NCBI RefSeq assembly: GCF_032921865.1
Contig: NZ_CP136684.1
Location: 2,267,001-2,331,000 of the forward strand
Direction: 5' to 3'
From: Thalassospira lucentensis
GTDB taxonomy: Bacteria; Pseudomonadota; Alphaproteobacteria; Rhodospirillales; Thalassospiraceae
Length of the DNA: 64,000 bases
The position numbers were made by a program, and so were the translations under genes. Position 1 is the first letter of the stretch; every line of letters starts with the position of its first letter. The notes under the pieces were generated by a model, which was not told the origin of the DNA, did no database searches, and worked only from the letters and a program-made list of their open reading frames with translations. Shown piece after piece: positions 10,106-17,454 of this stretch.

Positions 10106-11467
10106 ATGACACTTAATCCGTTGCTTAACCTTGACGTGGTCGAAGTGCGTGACCGGCTGGCATCCGGTGCCGTGAGGGCAGTCGAGTATGCCGAGGCCTG
10201 CCTTAATCGGATCGCGGCACTTGAACCGGAAATTCAGGCGTGGGCCTATCTTGATGGTGACTATGTCCTGGCACAGGCACGTGCGCTTGACGCGCGCCGC
10301 CAGTCGGGCATGCCGATCGGCCCGTTGCATGGTCTGCCGGTCGGGCTGAAGGACGTTATCGATACGGCCCGGATGCCAACCGAAAATGGCACGCCGCTTG
10401 ATAAGGGACGGGTGCCGACCGAGGATGCGGTGCTGGTCGAAAAGCTGCGTGCGGCGGGTGCGATCATCATGGGCAAGACGGTTTCGACCGAAATGGCCTT
10501 CATGTGCCCGTCCAAAACACGCAACCCGCACAACACATCCCACACACCGGGGGGATCATCGGCCGGGTCGGCGGCGGCAGTTGCCGCGGCGATGGTGCCG
10601 TTGGCCGTGGGGACGCAAACCGGCGGTTCGGTCATCCGGCCGGCATCGTTTTGTGGGGTGGTCGGGTTAAAGCCGACCTTTGGCGCGATTTCCCGTACCG
10701 GGGTTCTGGCCCAGTCACCGTCGCTTGATACCATTGGTGTGTTTGCCCGTTCTGTCGAAGGGGCGGCGATGATTGCCGAAATCCTGTTCGGGCATGACGC
10801 GCGTGACCGGGCGACGACATTGCAACCCACCCCGCGTTTGCAGGAAGCCGCCAAATCGACGCCGCTGGTAACGCCGACATTGGCCTTTGTCCGCCCACCA
10901 CAGTTTGACAGTGTGGCCGATGACGATACCGTCATGGCGTTTCGCGAATTGACGAGTGTTTTGGGCGAACAGTGCTTTGAGGCACCCCTGCCCAAGGCAT
11001 TTGATGATGCCGCCGACCTGCGGGCAAAGATCAATTTCGCCGAAATGGCGAAATGTTATTACAGCTATGAAAAGCGCGGACGCGATCAATTATCCCCGCA
11101 GATGACAGAGGCGCTTGACGCGGGGAACAGGGTCACGGCGCGGGATTATCTTGCCGCACTGGACTGGCGCGATCTTTACAATGTTGCGCTTGATGAAGTG
11201 TTCCAGCGTTGCGATGTGATCATCACCCCGGCGGCACCGGGCCCGGCCCCCGGCAGCCTTGATACGACCGGGAATGCCATTTTTAACGGTCTTTGGACGT
11301 TGTGCGGGACGCCTGCGATTACGCTGCCGTTGCTTTGGGCGGAAAACGGGTTGCCGATGGGCGTGCAGCTTGTCGGGCGGCGCGGCGATGATGCCCGGTT
11401 GCTTCGAACGGCGCGCTGGCTTGTTGAATTTGTTACGAATTCTGAAAATGAAGGAGCATCGTCATGA
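10106..11467 (+). CDS. Amidase (amidase-signature family)
   Basis: A 453-residue enzyme of the amidase-signature superfamily. The Ser-cisSer-Lys machinery is visible: Lys82 in PVGLKDVIDT, the GGSSAGSAAA segment at about 149-158 (cis-Ser), and Ser175 in GTQTGGSVIRPAS (nucleophile). The family hydrolyses amide bonds and releases ammonia. ATG 10106 has aggagg upstream, 12 bases after dctM, so it is part of the TRAP operon. It probably acts on the imported compound or on a product of it, but the substrate is unknown. Its end overlaps the start of the next small gene by 4 bases. Confidence 0.9.
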   Translation: MTLNPLLNLDVVEVRDRLASGAVRAVEYAEACLNRIAALEPEIQAWAYLDGDYVLAQARALDARRQSGMPIGPLHGLPVGLKDVIDTARMPTENGTPLDKGRVPTEDAVLVEKLRAAGAIIMGKTVSTEMAFMCPSKTRNPHNTSHTPGGSSAGSAAAVAAAMVPLAVGTQTGGSVIRPASFCGVVGLKPTFGAISRTGVLAQSPSLDTIGVFARSVEGAAMIAEILFGHDARDRATTLQPTPRLQEAAKSTPLVTPTLAFVRPPQFDSVADDDTVMAFRELTSVLGEQCFEAPLPKAFDDAADLRAKINFAEMAKCYYSYEKRGRDQLSPQMTEALDAGNRVTARDYLAALDWRDLYNVALDEVFQRCDVIITPAAPGPAPGSLDTTGNAIFNGLWTLCGTPAITLPLLWAENGLPMGVQLVGRRGDDARLLRTARWLVEFVTNSENEGASS

Positions 11468-11649
11468 TACCGTCACGTCTTGATCAGGCAATGGCGATTT
11501 TGGCCTTTATCGTTTTTGGGGGCTTTCTTGGCATTCTGTTTGGCTATGTCACGCGCTGGGATCTTGGCATCATGGTCGGGATCACGCTGGCGCTGTGTGC
11601 GTGGGATTTCTGGCATATGGCCACAGGGCGAAAAAGCGACCATCACTGA
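11464..11649 (+). CDS. Small membrane protein, 61 residues
   Basis: The start overlaps the amidase stop (ATG 11464 in the ATGA arrangement), a sign of coupled translation. The product has two hydrophobic helices (about 10-30 and 34-52) and a basic, His-ended tail. It is not recognised as a named family. Similar two-helix proteins often accompany transporter operons, so an accessory role to the TRAP permease is possible but unproven. Confidence 0.7.
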   Translation: MIPSRLDQAMAILAFIVFGGFLGILFGYVTRWDLGIMVGITLALCAWDFWHMATGRKSDHH

Positions 11650-11680
11650 TCGCTTTTAATTCACGCCAATTGTTTCGGGG

Positions 11681-11720
11681 CGCGCCGGGGATTTCAAAAT
11701 CCCTAGGCGCGTTTTGTTTT
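11681..11720 (+). terminator. Terminator of the TRAP/amidase operon, overlapping the convergent gene's end
   Basis: CGCGCC plus GGGAT (11681-11692) pairs with ATCCC and GGCGCG (11699-11711) and is followed by TTTTGTTTT. The stop codon of the minus-strand sulfotransferase (11703-11705) lies inside the stem, so two operons end in the same 40 bases. Confidence 0.8.
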
Positions 11721-12890
11721 GGCCATGTGGGCAGCTTGTTCCGGTTTGCTGTCATACCCGAAACGGGCGGCTGCAATTGCCGTGACATCGCGGATCAGAT
11801 CAATTTCTTCGTCGCTGAATTTCGGCCGGTAATAGGTCGGCGCGTGAATGGTCGGGGCGACTTCATTGATGATCGGTTCGGCGTCGGGCAGGTCGACATG
11901 ATCAAACAGGCGGCGTAACTGATTTGCCGGGTCGGCGACGAAATCCTCGTAACGGACCACCAGCGTCGCGTCGCCAAGCGCCTTGTTCACGGTCATGCGA
12001 TCCGCGATGTAGTGGTGCAGGTCGCTCCAGTAATGGGCCCAGCCGGCGACTTCGTTGCCTTCGTTCCAGTGTTTCATGATCTGGCGGGTGGCGTGCAGAT
12101 CGCCGGTATTGATCGGACGACGATCAAGGCCGAATTCGTAATGGCCGACACGCTGCATATGGGCGACCGCGCGTGGGTTATCCTGTTCGCCCTTGCAGAA
12201 CAGGTCGTGCTGTTTGGCAAGGGATGCGATATGCCACAGCGGATCACGCACCGGCAGGACGAACCTGGCATCGGGGAAGATCGACAGCAGATATTCCATC
12301 CGGGTGACCAGATAGTTCGCCTTGGAGATATAGCGTTTGCCGCCGCGCACATGGATCAGTTTGCGGATGTGATCGCGATAGAACTTCTCGAACGCCGGGT
12401 TGCTGATCTGACCATCAAGGACGTTGCTTTCATTGACGTCATGCAGATGACGGAAAAACGCCATCCAGATCATTTCCTCGAACGCTTCGGGGCTTTCAGG
12501 CGTGATGTTGATGCCATCCGCATGGGTGCGTTCAACCGCAACCTCCTTGCCCTTGGGGGCAAGATCGACAAACTTGTTCCACAGATAGGGCGTGAAAACC
12601 GGCGGATAGTCGCGGTAACGATGGGTTGCCGCATCGGAATGGCGGGCCAGCGTTTCCAGAAGGATCGTGCTGCCGGATCGGGCAAGACCCGCGACAAAGA
12701 CCGGCTTTTCTATTTGGACATCTTCAATCGCATCACCGGCAAGTTTCGTTTCGAAATTGCCAAGTCTGATCCATTGCATCGGGTGGCGGGCAATCAGGCC
12801 GCTTAGCCAGTTATCCCAGCCCGATACATGGAAGGCTGCGCCATTAGACGCGGGTGTGGTTGATTTTTCGGATGTCGTTTGGCCAGTCAT
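11703..12890 (-). CDS. Sulfotransferase family protein (PAPS-dependent type)
   Basis: A 395-residue cytosolic protein of the Sulfotransfer_3-like group. The 5'-phosphosulfate loop is FVAGLARSGSTILLETLARH (about 65-84), and a 3'-phosphate-type segment FVLPVRDPLWHIASLAKQH follows further on. These enzymes move sulfate from PAPS to hydroxyl groups of carbohydrates, lipids or small molecules. The start at 12890 is fixed by a 4-base overlap (ATGA) with the stop of the preceding gene; a longer in-frame version would add 64 residues overlapping that gene. It is the last gene of a four-gene operon beginning with an arylsulfotransferase-like protein. The acceptor is unknown. Confidence 0.85.
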   Translation of the reverse strand: MTGQTTSEKSTTPASNGAAFHVSGWDNWLSGLIARHPMQWIRLGNFETKLAGDAIEDVQIEKPVFVAGLARSGSTILLETLARHSDAATHRYRDYPPVFTPYLWNKFVDLAPKGKEVAVERTHADGINITPESPEAFEEMIWMAFFRHLHDVNESNVLDGQISNPAFEKFYRDHIRKLIHVRGGKRYISKANYLVTRMEYLLSIFPDARFVLPVRDPLWHIASLAKQHDLFCKGEQDNPRAVAHMQRVGHYEFGLDRRPINTGDLHATRQIMKHWNEGNEVAGWAHYWSDLHHYIADRMTVNKALGDATLVVRYEDFVADPANQLRRLFDHVDLPDAEPIINEVAPTIHAPTYYRPKFSDEEIDLIRDVTAIAAARFGYDSKPEQAAHMAKTKRA

Positions 12891-13630
12891 TCGATGCGAA
12901 ATCCTTTTTTGATCGCCAGCGACCCCAATACGAGAGCAAGGAAGAAAGTCAGTTCCCAGCCACGTGCCCAATCCGGGCCGGCGCTGATGATTTGTTGGGT
13001 TGGCAATTCGAAACGAAGCTGTGTTACCGGGCTGTCGTCGGGCAGATAGCCCGCCGGATTGCCGATAATCAGGTTCCACCACTGTTTTTGATGGATCACG
13101 GGAATGGCGGCGGCCGGTGCCACCAGATAGGTTTCACCGTCACTGGCACCGGGCACCTGAACAACAGGACAGGCACCGTCTTCCAATCCGGCCGGATTGA
13201 TGCCGACCTGTTCGATGGCGACATTTTCCGGCTGGGCGCTGATGGAAACCTGCTGCCCCGGTGCCGGGCAGCTATAACCGTACTGCCCGTCCAGCCAGAC
13301 GATCATCGCAAGGGCGGGCAGGGATGCGACAACCGCCGGGCCGATGACGAAACCGACAAGTTTCAGCGACTGGGCAAGCTGTGCCTTGGCCAGCTTCATG
13401 CCTTCGCCGAAATCCTCGCCATCGTCTTCGGCCATGGCCTTGCGGGCTTCTTTCAGCCGTTCCTTGATCGCCTTGATGCGTGTTTGCGGCGACAGCACCT
13501 TATAAAGCAGCATCGAAATCACCGCACAGACCAGCGCCCAGATCAGGACGCGTCCAAACGGTCCGAGGGCATCTGCCATCAGGGCATCAAGGGTGCTAAA
13601 GGCGGGGGCGGGCCAATCGAGTATTCCCAT
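12887..13630 (-). CDS. Membrane protein with DUF106/YidC-superfamily-like layout
   Basis: A 247-residue protein. A first helix (about 25-45) is followed by a charged coiled-coil-prone stretch, SPQTRIKAIKERLKEARKAM, then a helix at about 92-115. Next comes an outer domain of about 100 residues with two Cys (YSCPAPG and GACPVV) that could form a disulfide, and a last helix at about 222-240. The order helix, cytosolic hairpin, helix resembles EMC3/TMCO1/DUF106 proteins, which belong with the YidC insertases. This is judged from layout only and may be wrong. It overlaps the sulfotransferase by 4 bases, so they are made together. Confidence 0.6.
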   Translation of the reverse strand: MGILDWPAPAFSTLDALMADALGPFGRVLIWALVCAVISMLLYKVLSPQTRIKAIKERLKEARKAMAEDDGEDFGEGMKLAKAQLAQSLKLVGFVIGPAVVASLPALAMIVWLDGQYGYSCPAPGQQVSISAQPENVAIEQVGINPAGLEDGACPVVQVPGASDGETYLVAPAAAIPVIHQKQWWNLIIGNPAGYLPDDSPVTQLRFELPTQQIISAGPDWARGWELTFFLALVLGSLAIKKGFRIE

Positions 13631-13660
13631 GCGTCATCGTTCCTGTTGGTCGTTGACCGT

Positions 13661-13942
13661 TCAGGCCTTCGGCTGGTGCGAATGCGCCGAATGCGTTGAA
13701 TGCGAGGTGGTGCCAGAGCCGTTTTGCTGCGCACGTTTGCGGTTGCGCATCATTTTGCGGATCGGCCACAGCAGGACAAAGCCAACCGCGACAAATACGG
13801 CGGCCAGAACAGCCCACAAAGCAGACAGAAGGCTAAGACCAGCGCCCGGTCCCACATATGCCTGTGCAGGCAGGGCTGTCAGAAGTGTTGCTGCAGCAAT
13901 GGTCGCGGTTCCAATCGAAAGCAGTTTCATGTTCTGTTTCAT
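13661..13942 (-). CDS. Small YVGPGAG-type membrane protein
   Basis: A 93-residue protein with an N-terminal signal peptide ending in LPAQA, then AYVGPGAGLSLLSALWAVLAA leading into one transmembrane helix. A basic WPIRKMMRNRKR stop follows, and a Ser/His/Thr-rich tail. The YVGPGAG sequence after the cleavage site is a repeatedly seen hallmark of small exported proteins beside sulfatase-, phosphodiesterase- or sulfotransferase-like genes (general recollection, not checked). It starts inside the end of the arylsulfotransferase gene (ATGA overlap at 13939-13942) and ends 30 bases before the DUF106-like gene. Confidence 0.72.
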   Translation of the reverse strand: MKQNMKLLSIGTATIAAATLLTALPAQAYVGPGAGLSLLSALWAVLAAVFVAVGFVLLWPIRKMMRNRKRAQQNGSGTTSHSTHSAHSHQPKA

Positions 13943-15336
13943 TGCTTTTCTCCATCAGGGGAGGTCGGGGTGAAGTTGGTATCGCTGTAAAGGGCTGCGC
14001 GTTCATCGCTGATGCGCTCGGCCTGCGATACGACGGGGATCAGTTTTTGGCCGGGATTGTCGGGATCATCACGGCGGATCGGGTTGTGGTATTCCCAGAC
14101 GATCTCGCCTTCCGGGGTGACTTCAAAAAGGCGTCCGCCCGATGATTCGGTAATCAGCGTATTGCCATTGGGAAGGCGCTGCTGATCAGCACGGATGTTG
14201 CTGTCAAACCTGTGTTCGGCAGTGCCCTTGTATTCCCAGGTGATGCCGTTGGTTGCGGGATCAATCTGCAGCACGCGGGATTGACCGGCGTCCGGATCGG
14301 CAAGCTGGCCCTGATTGTCAAACAGCAGGATATCGCCGTTTGGCAGGACATCCGGGTCATGCTGCCCCAGCCAGGGGCCACGGGTTGCCCAGACGACTTT
14401 TTCCGCATCCATATCAAGCACGGCAATGATGCCAAGATCACGGAAGGACAGAACAACATCGCCCGCCTTGCCCTGTTCAAAGTTTTGCGCCGTTTCTTCG
14501 GTAATCAACTGGATCGTGTTGGTGTGCAACACGTCCTCGTTCGAGAAATAGGGCGCGAAATCGACCATGTTGGCGTAGCTGGAATTGATCAGCGCATCGA
14601 GGATCGAGACACGTTTGATTTCCTTGCCTTCAGGCGAGAGGATCACCGCGAAATCATCAAGCCGCGGCGGGGTGAGCTGTTTGCGGTTGTCATATGTGTT
14701 AAAGCGGAATTCCTGGGTCAGGGCATAAACCCGGCCATCAGGCGCAATCGAAAAATCGTGATGTGCGGTTCCCAGATATTTCCAGACCGGTTTGGAATTG
14801 CGGTCGATCTTGGCCATGCCATAGCCATATGGCGTGTCGCCCGCCGCGGTATATTGCACGATCAGGTCACCATCAGGTGCCATCTTGGCGGTATGCCAAT
14901 GCATGAAATCGTCTTTTTGCGGGTTGGGGATCGGCGATGTTTCATCGTGGATTTCGCTGAACGGCATGCGCCATTCATGCACGATGTTGCCATCCATATC
15001 GACCAGCACCGCATGCGGCCCGTCACCCGACGAATACAGGGTCAGACCTTTCTGGGTCTTGTCGGCTTTATTGATCGTGACACCGGTTTCTTCGGTTCGG
15101 GCGGGGGACCAGAAATCAAGCCGTTCGACACTGCTGTATTTGGTACGCTGTTCCCACAGGGCCGTGCCCGCACGCCACGCGTTTTTCATCGACTGATAGG
15201 GCGGTACTTCGGCCAGTATGACAAACGCACCAATACCGAAGCTGATCGCGGCAACGCCGGTCATGAAGGCAGCAAAAAAGATTTTATCGCCGCGGTTGTT
15301 TTCCGCGGATTCATCTGTCTGTTGAGGTGCAGGCAC
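13939..15336 (-). CDS. Arylsulfotransferase (ASST)-like protein, membrane-anchored
   Basis: A 465-residue protein with one N-terminal helix (about 19-41) that would anchor it with the rest outside the cytosol. The body is a beta-propeller-like repeat series. ASST features include FMHWHTAKMAPDGDL (about 145-157), GTAHHDFSIAPDGRV (about 190-203), GQHDPDVLPNGDILLFDNQG (about 324-343) and QQRLPNGNTLITESSGGRLFEV. Known ASSTs transfer sulfate between phenolic compounds through a histidine, without PAPS. It is the first gene of the operon and is coupled to the next by a 4-base overlap. A non-sulfating member of the same propeller family cannot be excluded. Confidence 0.82.
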   Translation of the reverse strand: MPAPQQTDESAENNRGDKIFFAAFMTGVAAISFGIGAFVILAEVPPYQSMKNAWRAGTALWEQRTKYSSVERLDFWSPARTEETGVTINKADKTQKGLTLYSSGDGPHAVLVDMDGNIVHEWRMPFSEIHDETSPIPNPQKDDFMHWHTAKMAPDGDLIVQYTAAGDTPYGYGMAKIDRNSKPVWKYLGTAHHDFSIAPDGRVYALTQEFRFNTYDNRKQLTPPRLDDFAVILSPEGKEIKRVSILDALINSSYANMVDFAPYFSNEDVLHTNTIQLITEETAQNFEQGKAGDVVLSFRDLGIIAVLDMDAEKVVWATRGPWLGQHDPDVLPNGDILLFDNQGQLADPDAGQSRVLQIDPATNGITWEYKGTAEHRFDSNIRADQQRLPNGNTLITESSGGRLFEVTPEGEIVWEYHNPIRRDDPDNPGQKLIPVVSQAERISDERAALYSDTNFTPTSPDGEKQ

Positions 15337-15497
15337 GCGGTAATCTCCTTGTCATCTGACAAAAAGGTTACGCGGGCCTCCGGGCAAATTTACGGCCAGT
15401 ATCAAGGGGATTGGGGCGGTTTGGCCGCTTTTCGCCTTTGTTTCGCCCAAGAGTTTAATTGTAAGTTGGGATGTTTTTCGGCGGTTTGTTTGTTTGA

Positions 15498-16943
15498 TTA
15501 CTGCCGGTATTCCACCCCGTCCATGACCAGAAGATTACCGTCAAACCGGCACGAAACAGTGCCTGACGGTGCACTCATGCGTTGCAGAACCTGTCCGGTT
15601 GCCGCATCGCTATAGGTGCCGTTGCCATAGGTGACCGAAATGCTGTCGGGCGTGGTGACATAGGTGAAGCCGATTTCGAACCGGAATTTTTGCGCGCTGC
15701 CATAGGTGTAACTGACGAAATTACCGTTTCCCTGACCGGGCGAGTCGAGTTTAAGGGTGGAATTGCCGGTATTGTCGCGGAATGTGCCACTGGCATTGCG
15801 GCAACCGCTTTGGGCTGTGGCCTGCGGTTGGGTGGTTTCGGATGCGGCTTTCCGGGCGGCTTCTTCGGCAGCGGCTTTTGCGGCAAGCTGGCGATCACGT
15901 TCCATCAGGGTGGCCAGTTCATCCGGCCCCGAAAGCTTTTTGCCGCCGTAATAATAGCAATCACCGGCCGGGACGGTTTCCCCGCCGCAGACGAATTGGC
16001 CGGTCTGGCTTGGGAATGCCGATCCTTCGGGCAGTTCCATCCACCCGCCTTCCCACCAGGTCAGGCGGCCCTGACCGGCGGGCTTGCGTTCGCGCACCGG
16101 CCCCTGCCAGACATTGCCGTCCGCCATGCGCAGTTCACCCTCACGCGGGTCGAACACGCGATAGGTGCCGGTAAAGCTTGTGCCATCGGGCCATTTGGTC
16201 GTGCTGCCCGGTTCGATCTGGCGGCTGTCGCTTAGATATTCGCCGTCCACCACGCGGCCATCGGCATATTCGATGTCGCCGGTGATTTTATCGCCGGTAA
16301 TGTCGGCATTGTCGATTTCGGCAAAGGGCTGTTCGTTGCGGGTGATTTCGACCGTGCCGGTGCCGACCGGATTGCCGTTATTTTGCGGGCCGGTATATTC
16401 CGCCCGGTAGCCGTCATGGGCAAACATGACTTCGGGGCCATAGGTGGTAGTGATCGGTATGCGCCATACCGTGGTGTCGATATTGGGGTCAATCCGGGCG
16501 GGATCGGGTTCGCGGCTTATTTTGACGTCTTCGGAAAACAGGCCGTAATCGGCATAAACCACCGTGACCTCGCCGGGGAGCACATCAACCCAGCTTTCCG
16601 ATTTCAGTTCGCCCAGTCGAGAGACCCTGACCAGGTAGCTGTCTGGCCAAAGGGTATATTCCTTCATCTGTCCGGCGGAAAGCTGTTCGGTGGTGAAGGG
16701 CTTGAACCCCTTGTTGCGGGAAGCCTTTACGACCTGCATCTGCCAGCCGTAGTAAGCGCCGTTACCGGATGGGTTGATCCGGAATGCGATGCTGCCGGGA
16801 TCGGAAACACTGGCCGGGGCAAGGGATGTTTGCGATGGCACGGGCGAGGGGGCTGGGGGTGTGTTGACTGTCTGGCAGGCAGAAAGGCTTATGCCCAGAA
16901 TGCCAATCGTCATGGTCCTGATCATGGTAACGCCCGGTTTCAT
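15498..16943 (-). CDS. Lipoprotein with MORN-like repeats
   Basis: A 481-residue protein whose signal peptide ends in the lipobox LSAC (ILGISLSACQ), so it should be lipidated. ATG 16943 is chosen because a gggga site lies just upstream; in-frame starts further up give polar leaders. The middle has repeats of the type DGRVVDGEYL, DGTSFTGTYRVF and DGNVWQGPV, like degenerate MORN motifs. An Ala/Glu-rich helical stretch follows (about 390-420), then a C-terminal beta domain (CRNASGTFRDNTGNSTLKL...). The function is unknown; an envelope location is likely. Confidence 0.78.
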   Translation of the reverse strand: MKPGVTMIRTMTIGILGISLSACQTVNTPPAPSPVPSQTSLAPASVSDPGSIAFRINPSGNGAYYGWQMQVVKASRNKGFKPFTTEQLSAGQMKEYTLWPDSYLVRVSRLGELKSESWVDVLPGEVTVVYADYGLFSEDVKISREPDPARIDPNIDTTVWRIPITTTYGPEVMFAHDGYRAEYTGPQNNGNPVGTGTVEITRNEQPFAEIDNADITGDKITGDIEYADGRVVDGEYLSDSRQIEPGSTTKWPDGTSFTGTYRVFDPREGELRMADGNVWQGPVRERKPAGQGRLTWWEGGWMELPEGSAFPSQTGQFVCGGETVPAGDCYYYGGKKLSGPDELATLMERDRQLAAKAAAEEAARKAASETTQPQATAQSGCRNASGTFRDNTGNSTLKLDSPGQGNGNFVSYTYGSAQKFRFEIGFTYVTTPDSISVTYGNGTYSDAATGQVLQRMSAPSGTVSCRFDGNLLVMDGVEYRQ

Positions 16944-17016
16944 CACCCATTCCCCCATAGGCCAAATGATAAAACCGATTTCGCCACAACTTTGGCAGGT
17001 TGGGAAGCGTTTAAAT

Positions 17017-17454
17017 TTAGCCTTTCCAGGCAATAAGCGCGGCACCGGTGCCGATCATCACGACGCCAAGCCAGCTTGCGGGGGACAGTTTTTCACCAAG
17101 AAATGCTGCGCCGAAGATCGCAACCAGTACGACGCTGAGCTTGTCAATCGGGGCGACCTTTGCGGCCTCGCCAATCTTGAGTGCGCGGAAGTAGCATAAC
17201 CACGATGCCCCGGTCGCAAGCCCGGACAGGATCAGGAACCACCATGTTTTGGCCGATACGGTTGCCGGGTTTTGCCAGTGACCGCCAATCATCAGGATGG
17301 CGAAGACCATGACGAAAATGATTGCGGTGCGGATAAAGGTGGCAAAGTCGGAATTGATGTTTTCAATCCCGACCTTGGCAAAAATCGCGGTCAGGGCGGC
17401 AAAGCAGGCGGCAAGGGCAGCCCATAATTGCCAGCTTTCCATCACATCCTTCAT
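17017..17454 (-). CDS. Half-size EamA family transporter
   Basis: A 145-residue hydrophobic protein containing a single EamA unit of about five helices. It has the family's ending, APIDKLSVVLVAIFGAAFLGEKLSPASWLGVVMIGTGAALIAW. Classical DMT exporters have two such units, so this would work as a dimer, like the known 140-residue members. The gene starts 45 bases after the AsnC/Lrp regulator stop and could be the end of the ectoine operon. Export of an amino acid or related compound is possible; no substrate is indicated. Confidence 0.85.
   Translation of the reverse strand: MKDVMESWQLWAALAACFAALTAIFAKVGIENINSDFATFIRTAIIFVMVFAILMIGGHWQNPATVSAKTWWFLILSGLATGASWLCYFRALKIGEAAKVAPIDKLSVVLVAIFGAAFLGEKLSPASWLGVVMIGTGAALIAWKG

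Follow-up and report, generated by a model that had tools for sequence, protein, structure and literature searches.

Within a 64,000-nucleotide stretch of Thalassospira lucentensis DNA (contig NZ_CP136684.1, positions 2,267,001 to 2,331,000 of the forward strand; hereafter the window), four contiguous minus-strand genes form an operon that is real and widely conserved, and that joins two sulfotransferases of different type through two small membrane proteins. We put at about 0.55 the probability that this cassette is a membrane-spanning two-step sulfation system. In such a system, the gene 4 enzyme would sulfate a carrier, most likely phenolic, in the cytosol using 3'-phosphoadenosine 5'-phosphosulfate (PAPS). 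The gene 3 protein and the gene 2 peptide would form a membrane module holding gene 4 on the inner face and an outward-facing enzyme on the other, and letting the sulfated carrier reach the periplasm. The gene 1 enzyme would then take the sulfuryl group onto His326 and hand it over to an envelope or exported acceptor. The computed support for this reading consists of the protein families, an active-site pattern kept intact, conserved linkage, fusions from which the orientation can be read, and linkage to PAPS synthesis in some relatives.

Gene 1 (13939..15336) starts with GTG and encodes a 465-amino-acid beta-propeller of the arylsulfate sulfotransferase (ASST) type, membrane-anchored as judged by eye and by a model helix at residues 9-42. 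Gene 2 (13661..13942) encodes a 93-amino-acid peptide with a signal-like start, the motif AYVGPGAG, a single hydrophobic stretch and a basic tail. The product of gene 3 (12887..13630) is a 247-amino-acid DUF106-related membrane protein with an inserted beta domain (model residues ~118-207), and that of gene 4 (11703..12890) is a PAPS-type sulfotransferase of 395 amino acids counted from the ATG; the mechanical open reading frame (ORF) of gene 4 begins farther upstream, at 13082. Genes 1 and 2 overlap by 4 bases (13939..13942), genes 2 and 3 are separated by 30 bases (13631..13660), and genes 3 and 4 overlap by 4 bases, ATGA (12887..12890). The ORF coordinates thus agreed in place, overlap and spacing with an earlier note on this DNA, made from the letters alone.

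In order to determine how far the arrangement is kept, GTDB contigs were scanned with a gene 3 profile, and the flanks of the 72 resulting loci were inspected. By their titles, these belong to Alpha- and Gammaproteobacteria, unplaced Proteobacteria and one Sumerlaeota metagenome-assembled genome (MAG). The exact order 1-2-3-4 on one strand was found in 53 of the 72: 47 plain cases; L039, whose contig is cut; L037, L043 and L051, where gene 2 was masked by the overlap filter in one flank listing and visible in the other; L080; and L079, which carries two copies of gene 1 and gene 3 fused to gene 4. In L080 (8080-9611, Pseudomonas sp. PIC25), gene 1 is split across two ORFs, through sequencing error or decay. 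Two Mesorhizobium loci are ordered 2-3-4-1, and one MAG 1-4-2-3. Gene 1 was present within the analysed stretch in 56/72 loci; in the genome of L058, genes 1 and 2 lie at the end of another contig, bringing the linkage to 57/72, and in L036 the contig is cut at gene 2. A search with phmmer found gene 2 in 70/72 loci; for L058 and L086, the two exceptions, the motif lies elsewhere in the genome. A start codon allowing the 4-base overlap of genes 3 and 4 was present in 39/48 loci (26/35 outside Thalassospira), and one allowing that of genes 1 and 2 in 27/48 (14/35 outside Thalassospira). Since the same one-strand order recurs in 53 loci and the overlap-giving start codons recur with it, the order is more than chance. 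The distances of genes 1, 3 and 4 were also correlated (r 0.82 to 0.89, 44 rows, 0/2000 permutations as high), as expected for a unit inherited together. The same four genes are carried by a Paroceanicella profunda plasmid, and gene 3 is identical (100%) in records of T. xianhensis and T. lucentensis. The order is therefore not peculiar to this strain (the earlier note had named restriction to this strain as the finding that would refute it); the note's expectation of conservation across Alphaproteobacteria held for that class and proved too narrow, the range including Gammaproteobacteria and the Sumerlaeota record.

Sampled genomes gave a similar picture. Gene 3 was found in 7/289 Alphaproteobacteria, and the DNA pattern for the gene 2 core, AY[VI]GPGAG, in 8/289, all seven gene 3 genomes among them (reversed-pattern control, 1 match). 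In Gammaproteobacteria, gene 3 was found in 7/274 genomes and the motif in the same seven (control, 0 matches), so that across the 563 genomes of both classes the motif accompanied gene 3 in 14/14. The gene 4 subfamily (E<1e-100) was present in 6/289 Alphaproteobacteria, with gene 3 in 6/6; three weaker gene 4 matches in that sample (3.9e-58 to 1.7e-73) were without gene 3. The six gammaproteobacterial gene 3 genomes other than G316 all contained the four genes; in two of them gene 1 follows gene 4 and is encoded on the other strand. Each class sample includes one genome picked for having the cassette (G000 and G316), some of the searches were limited to the 6 or 10 best first-look candidates in each genome, and several sampled genomes are also records among the GTDB loci (G159/L052, G205/L055, G202/L048 and G491/L061), which makes the sample counts and the locus counts interdependent. 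Three further arrangements were seen. The eighth motif genome, G052 (L103/L151), has an arylsulfotransferase match, a gene 2 peptide, a 129-residue membrane protein lacking a Pfam match in place of gene 3, and a gene 4 homologue; in G218 (L104/L152), a segment resembling that 129-residue protein is fused to gene 4; and in G259 (L154), a gene 4 homologue adjoins a weak arylsulfotransferase match (2.3e-13), with no gene 2 or gene 3 match within the fetched 14 kb.

Gene 4 matched the Pfam model Sulfotransfer_3 (PF13469) at 1e-21. The nearest solved sequences to its profile were TPST1/2 (2.4e-11), with the PAPS-site regions aligned. R71, T75, R215 and S223, which lie in regions aligned with TPST1 and in motifs that we take to have PAPS-site roles, are invariant in 40 rows (the window and 39/69 loci). 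These results supported the assignment of gene 4 as a PAPS-type sulfotransferase in the earlier note. TPST1/2 are eukaryotic Golgi enzymes, and the similarity to them need not imply a protein substrate. We infer a cytosolic location for gene 4, since it has no obvious hydrophobic stretch and occurs fused to gene 3. A second Sulfotransfer_1 match was noted in the same genome (G000:C2:4213581-4213829, L001; 7.9e-7).

As for PAPS supply, an adenosine 5'-phosphosulfate (APS) kinase is encoded in the same genome (3.5e-72). In relatives the linkage is closer: among the 72 loci, an APS-kinase domain lies downstream of gene 4 on the same strand in 6/6 Pseudomonas/Stutzerimonas loci, and in the Pfam matches of L060 and L063 it is joined to a C-terminal domain of GTPase type. 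Four loci have an APS-kinase-like gene beside gene 1 (L013:9175-9975, L037:7491-8270, L053:7383-8243 and L075:7541-8326; domain 1e-12 to 1e-15). The products of these four genes have a cytidylyltransferase-like C-terminus, and each is perhaps an unusual sulfate-activating enzyme.

Gene 1 matched Arylsulfotran_2 (PF14269, 9.7e-29) and Arylsulfotrans (PF05935, 1.9e-10), both above the Pfam cut-off, and no NCBIfam model. Its single sequence retrieved nothing useful from PDB sequences, and a family profile was needed; this profile found Cpz4 (9KF6, 4.8e-8; 9KF4, 7.9e-8). The E. coli ASST structure 3ELQ was matched weakly (E 0.53), ranking after some chains unrelated to gene 1 (such propeller and SLM4 chains appeared from 0.006), and was not listed by a shorter gene 1 profile. 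The AlphaFold2 model (predicted local distance difference test, pLDDT, 89.5) also had Cpz4 as its best Foldseek match (4e-16), with a modest TM-score of ~0.55 and among 690 matches at E<=0.001, many of them other propellers; 3ELQ was absent from the 50 matches listed. The arylsulfotransferase-like assignment made from the letters was thus upheld by family models, profile and fold.

The active-site pattern was then considered. H193, H271, N273, R299 and H326 are invariant in 56/56 rows, these being the window and 55/72 loci at a coverage of at least 60%; the split gene of L080 drops out, and the 16 other loci lack gene 1. A further gene 1 alignment omits six near-identical Thalassospira rows. 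The catalytic set of E. coli ASST comprises His252, His356, Asn358, Arg374 and His436, according to the available part of the source (PMC13426309). H326 corresponds to profile position 312, and 3ELQ aligned profile 310-379 to chain 434-514 at the level of ranges; H326 would therefore fall on E. coli His436, assuming an ungapped start and a chain numbering equal to the published one. The profile QHD also faces the QHD of Cpz4. H193, H271, N273 and R299 can be paired with their E. coli partners by motif and spacing only, and such pairing is provisional. Gene 1 thus probably encodes an ASST-type propeller that keeps the catalytic-histidine pattern, with H326, in the motif GQHDP (codon 14359..14361, minus strand), as the predicted sulfuryl acceptor. 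The missing catalytic histidine that the earlier note would have counted against this assignment was not observed in any row.

Gene 3 had no Pfam or NCBIfam match above the cut-off. A 7-sequence profile matched archaeal DUF106 MJ0480 (5C8J) at 1.7e-6, with the next match at 1.7, and a 67-sequence profile did so at 7.1e-7, with the next at 0.55. The MJ0480 score was 31.7 bits, compared with at most 20.1 in 39,991 scored decoys, in which the MJ0480 stretch had been shuffled inside segments or inside windows of 10 residues. Comparison of gene 3 by hhalign with four haloarchaeal DUF106 sequences and MJ0480 gave 89.9% (E 1.7e-6). The underlying alignment comprised the window and 64/72 loci, six near-identical and two partial rows being omitted. 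Bacterial YidC was tried as a source of gene 3 and rejected (hhalign probability 1.2; 10 YidC rows at or below 1.7 bits), and PF02096 appeared in 2/67 gene 3 members, at best 0.042. The AlphaFold2 model (pLDDT 91.5) has helices at 24-46, 49-68, 74-102, 104-117 and 225-244, in a plan of transmembrane helix, hairpin, transmembrane helix, transmembrane helix, with a beta domain of ~90 residues ahead of the last helix. From the parts of the literature available, the Oxa1 superfamily has three transmembrane helices and a cytoplasmic helical hairpin (PMC8675477), and archaeal DUF106 proteins have three transmembrane helices (PMC8887752). The gene 3 model fits the transmembrane-and-hairpin plan of the Oxa1 superfamily, its orientation being taken from the fusions described below. 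As in MJ0480, the helix, hairpin and second helix of gene 3 occupy profile 3-117, and the last helix is near the C-terminus; unlike MJ0480, gene 3 is bacterial and sulfotransferase-linked, and contains the beta domain. Gene 3 is thus DUF106-related by sequence, with no confirmation of the fold by Foldseek. Of the DUF106-like assignment in the earlier note, the sequence part stood, on the profile match, the decoys and hhalign; the YidC-like fold that it had expected was not returned by Foldseek, and YidC itself was unmatched in sequence.

Gene 2 also lacked a Pfam or NCBIfam match above the cut-off. A28, Y29, G31, P32, G33 and G35 are identical in 65/65 rows (the window and 64/72 loci, found using the window peptide, so that motif-less relatives could escape). 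The rows have A-x-A before Y29, one hydrophobic stretch after it, and a basic tail. The A-x-A resembles what we take to be a signal-peptidase site, so the mature peptide may begin at Y29 (codon 13856..13858, minus strand, placed from the conservation alignment and the translation). A text search of the literature with the gene 2 motif gave no related paper among the matches listed. It is conceivable, and in our view quite improbable, that this peptide is itself the sulfate carrier or first acceptor, Y29 becoming a tyrosine sulfate, with the DUF106/Oxa1-type protein linking the inner PAPS enzyme to the outer propeller or phosphodiesterase.

The orientation of the membrane module was given by gene fusions. 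In L079, gene 3 continues into gene 4 in one open frame without stops, and in L015, L078 and L086 a phosphodiesterase continues in the same way into gene 3; the L015 phosphodiesterase begins with a stretch that looks, by eye, like a signal peptide. Since gene 3 is fused on one side to the PAPS enzyme and on the other to an exported-type phosphodiesterase, its N-terminus is outside and its C-terminus inside, and it joins an outer enzyme to an inner one. No locus had both gene 1 and the phosphodiesterase in the analysed stretch; L077 and L078 are two contigs of one MAG with one cassette of each kind, so the exclusivity holds for loci and not for genomes. A sulfatase match occurs in the flanks of 8/10 phosphodiesterase loci (listed below) and in the gene 1 locus L037. 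L015 and L016 are also of the phosphodiesterase form, and in L016 the phosphodiesterase carries a YIGPGAG segment fused at its N-terminus.

The pairing of enzymes has a precedent. In caprazamycin biosynthesis, Cpz8 sulfates a triketide pyrone using PAPS, and Cpz4 moves the sulfate on (PMC6731281, PMC4257720; both available in part). The statement in the earlier note that no such system had been described was therefore partly wrong, two-step sulfation being known in that form. As there, a PAPS enzyme and a PAPS-independent propeller enzyme would act in one pathway; here they are linked in 57/72 loci, and Cpz4 is the best solved match of gene 1 by profile and by fold. Unlike the cassette, the caprazamycin system belongs to a Streptomyces antibiotic cluster and uses a triketide pyrone as carrier, and a DUF106-like protein or YVGPGAG peptide is not mentioned in the available parts of those articles; the cassette, in turn, has no carrier-making gene seen recurring alongside. 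Because no carrier synthase was seen nearby and the membrane module is unmentioned for Cpz, we did not file the cassette as a member of the Cpz8/Cpz4 system. The second comparison is with E. coli CFT073 ASST (3ELQ), which acts in the periplasm independently of PAPS, by way of His436, and shares its operon with DsbL/DsbI (PMC13426309). It shares with the cassette a PAPS-independent enzyme encoded together with accessory proteins. In E. coli, unlike the cassette, these are disulfide enzymes, and a PAPS enzyme in the operon is not mentioned in the available part of that article; the similarity of gene 1 to it is also weak. No description of the cassette, by gene set, families or motif, or of a membrane-spanning version of such sulfation, was found in the accessible portions of the open-licence PMC literature. 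With a PAPS enzyme inside, a PAPS-independent enzyme outside, a bridge between them and the Cpz8-to-Cpz4 precedent, the two-step relay is the simplest reading.

Several observations weigh against this reading. A type I phosphodiesterase (PF01663 family) replaces gene 1 in 10/72 loci (L054, L056, L057, L069, L072, L074, L078, L081, L083 and L086), and L034, L041, L044 and L048 have no gene 1 directly upstream, the contig breaking off on their other side. In G224, a distant gene 3 occurs together with the motif; it has no gene 4 match at 1e-30 and only a partial Sulfotransfer_3 gene nearby. Within Thalassospira, gene 3 is present in 19/29 genomes and missing from 10, so the cassette is accessory and dispensable. 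No recurrent carrier-making enzyme was recognised in the 14 largest flank clusters, only part of which could be identified. For gene 3, Foldseek gave 0 matches at E<=0.001 and no Oxa1 member among the best 50 of 252. Against its relationship to DUF106 in particular, PF01956 was not listed for the 67 members and was not found in the window's own genome, and the last helix aligned weakly with DUF106, shuffles equalling it in 3/4866, 22/4934, 34/4858 and 71/4855 cases.

The phosphodiesterase form indicates that the outer step is swappable, which leaves room for other explanations. There may be no relay: the molecule sulfated inside by gene 4 would be lipid-linked or amphipathic, genes 2 and 3 would transfer it across, and the outer enzyme would only trim or remodel the sulfate, by removal or exchange. 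This would suit an outer enzyme that is either an ASST-type propeller or a type I phosphodiesterase, the sulfatase near most phosphodiesterase loci, and the fusions of gene 3 to inner and outer enzymes. However, trimming does not need the full sulfuryl-transfer residue pattern kept in every gene 1 row, and no lipid-making genes were seen to recur among the flank clusters; we regard this account as possible and rather unlikely. Genes 2 and 3 could instead serve specifically to insert or assemble the outer enzyme, in the way that DsbL/DsbI serve E. coli ASST, and have no part in the sulfate chemistry. The DUF106 superfamily, to which gene 3 is related, inserts membrane proteins (PMC8675477, PMC8887752), and some ASST operons are known to include a folding system of their own (PMC13426309). 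The fusions of gene 3 to gene 4 and to phosphodiesterases are more scaffold-like, though, and a gene 2-gene 4 pair persists without an adjoining gene 3 elsewhere in G233 and in the L086 genome, both of which have gene 3 fused to a phosphodiesterase, so that an assembly role is unlikely.

It is very improbable that gene 1 uses external aryl sulfates, for scavenging or detoxification, and has only regulation in common with gene 4. Urinary aryl sulfates have been proposed for E. coli ASST, and the natural substrates of most such enzymes are unknown, according to the available part of PMC13426309; that genes 1, 3 and 4 are tightly linked and diverge in step argues against independent use. The two-step relay, as the earlier note had outlined it (a molecule sulfated inside, passed on and used outside), fits the fusions and the enzyme pairing. 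For this there would have to be a carrier, a route for it through genes 2 and 3, and an acceptor outside; in these respects the proposal stays as conjectural as it was.

Around the cassette, the recurrent neighbours identified were the APS-kinase fusion, the APS-kinase-like gene, the sulfatase of the phosphodiesterase form, a lactate permease and a SUV3-type helicase; some flank clusters arose from spurious frames in GC-rich DNA. Among the clusters identified, none was recognised as a conserved fifth gene that would provide the carrier. Scans of 11400-15700 gave 2 promoter sites (shuffle mean 2.2) and 1 terminator site (shuffle mean 4.7), no excess in either case. Upstream of gene 1, at 15498-17045 of the window (minus strand), lies a 515-amino-acid lipoprotein-like ORF with repeats and no Pfam match at 0.01. 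A role in anti-phage defence was considered and set aside, none of the four proteins matching PADLOC at 0.01.

Most PAPS-independent arylsulfotransferases have no established natural acceptor or physiological role (PMC13426309). In the compact cassette, an enzyme of this kind is coupled with a PAPS sulfotransferase of its own and with a bridge across the membrane, which makes the question of its role testable by deletion and labelling. With gene 3 comes a bacterial family that lacks annotation, whose sequence relates it to archaeal DUF106 and sets it apart from YidC; if the gene 2 peptide were indeed sulfated on Y29 and acted in the relay, one branch of the insertases would have been taken over for sulfuryl transfer. 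The cassette also suggests that various Proteobacteria produce some sulfated material for the envelope or for export.

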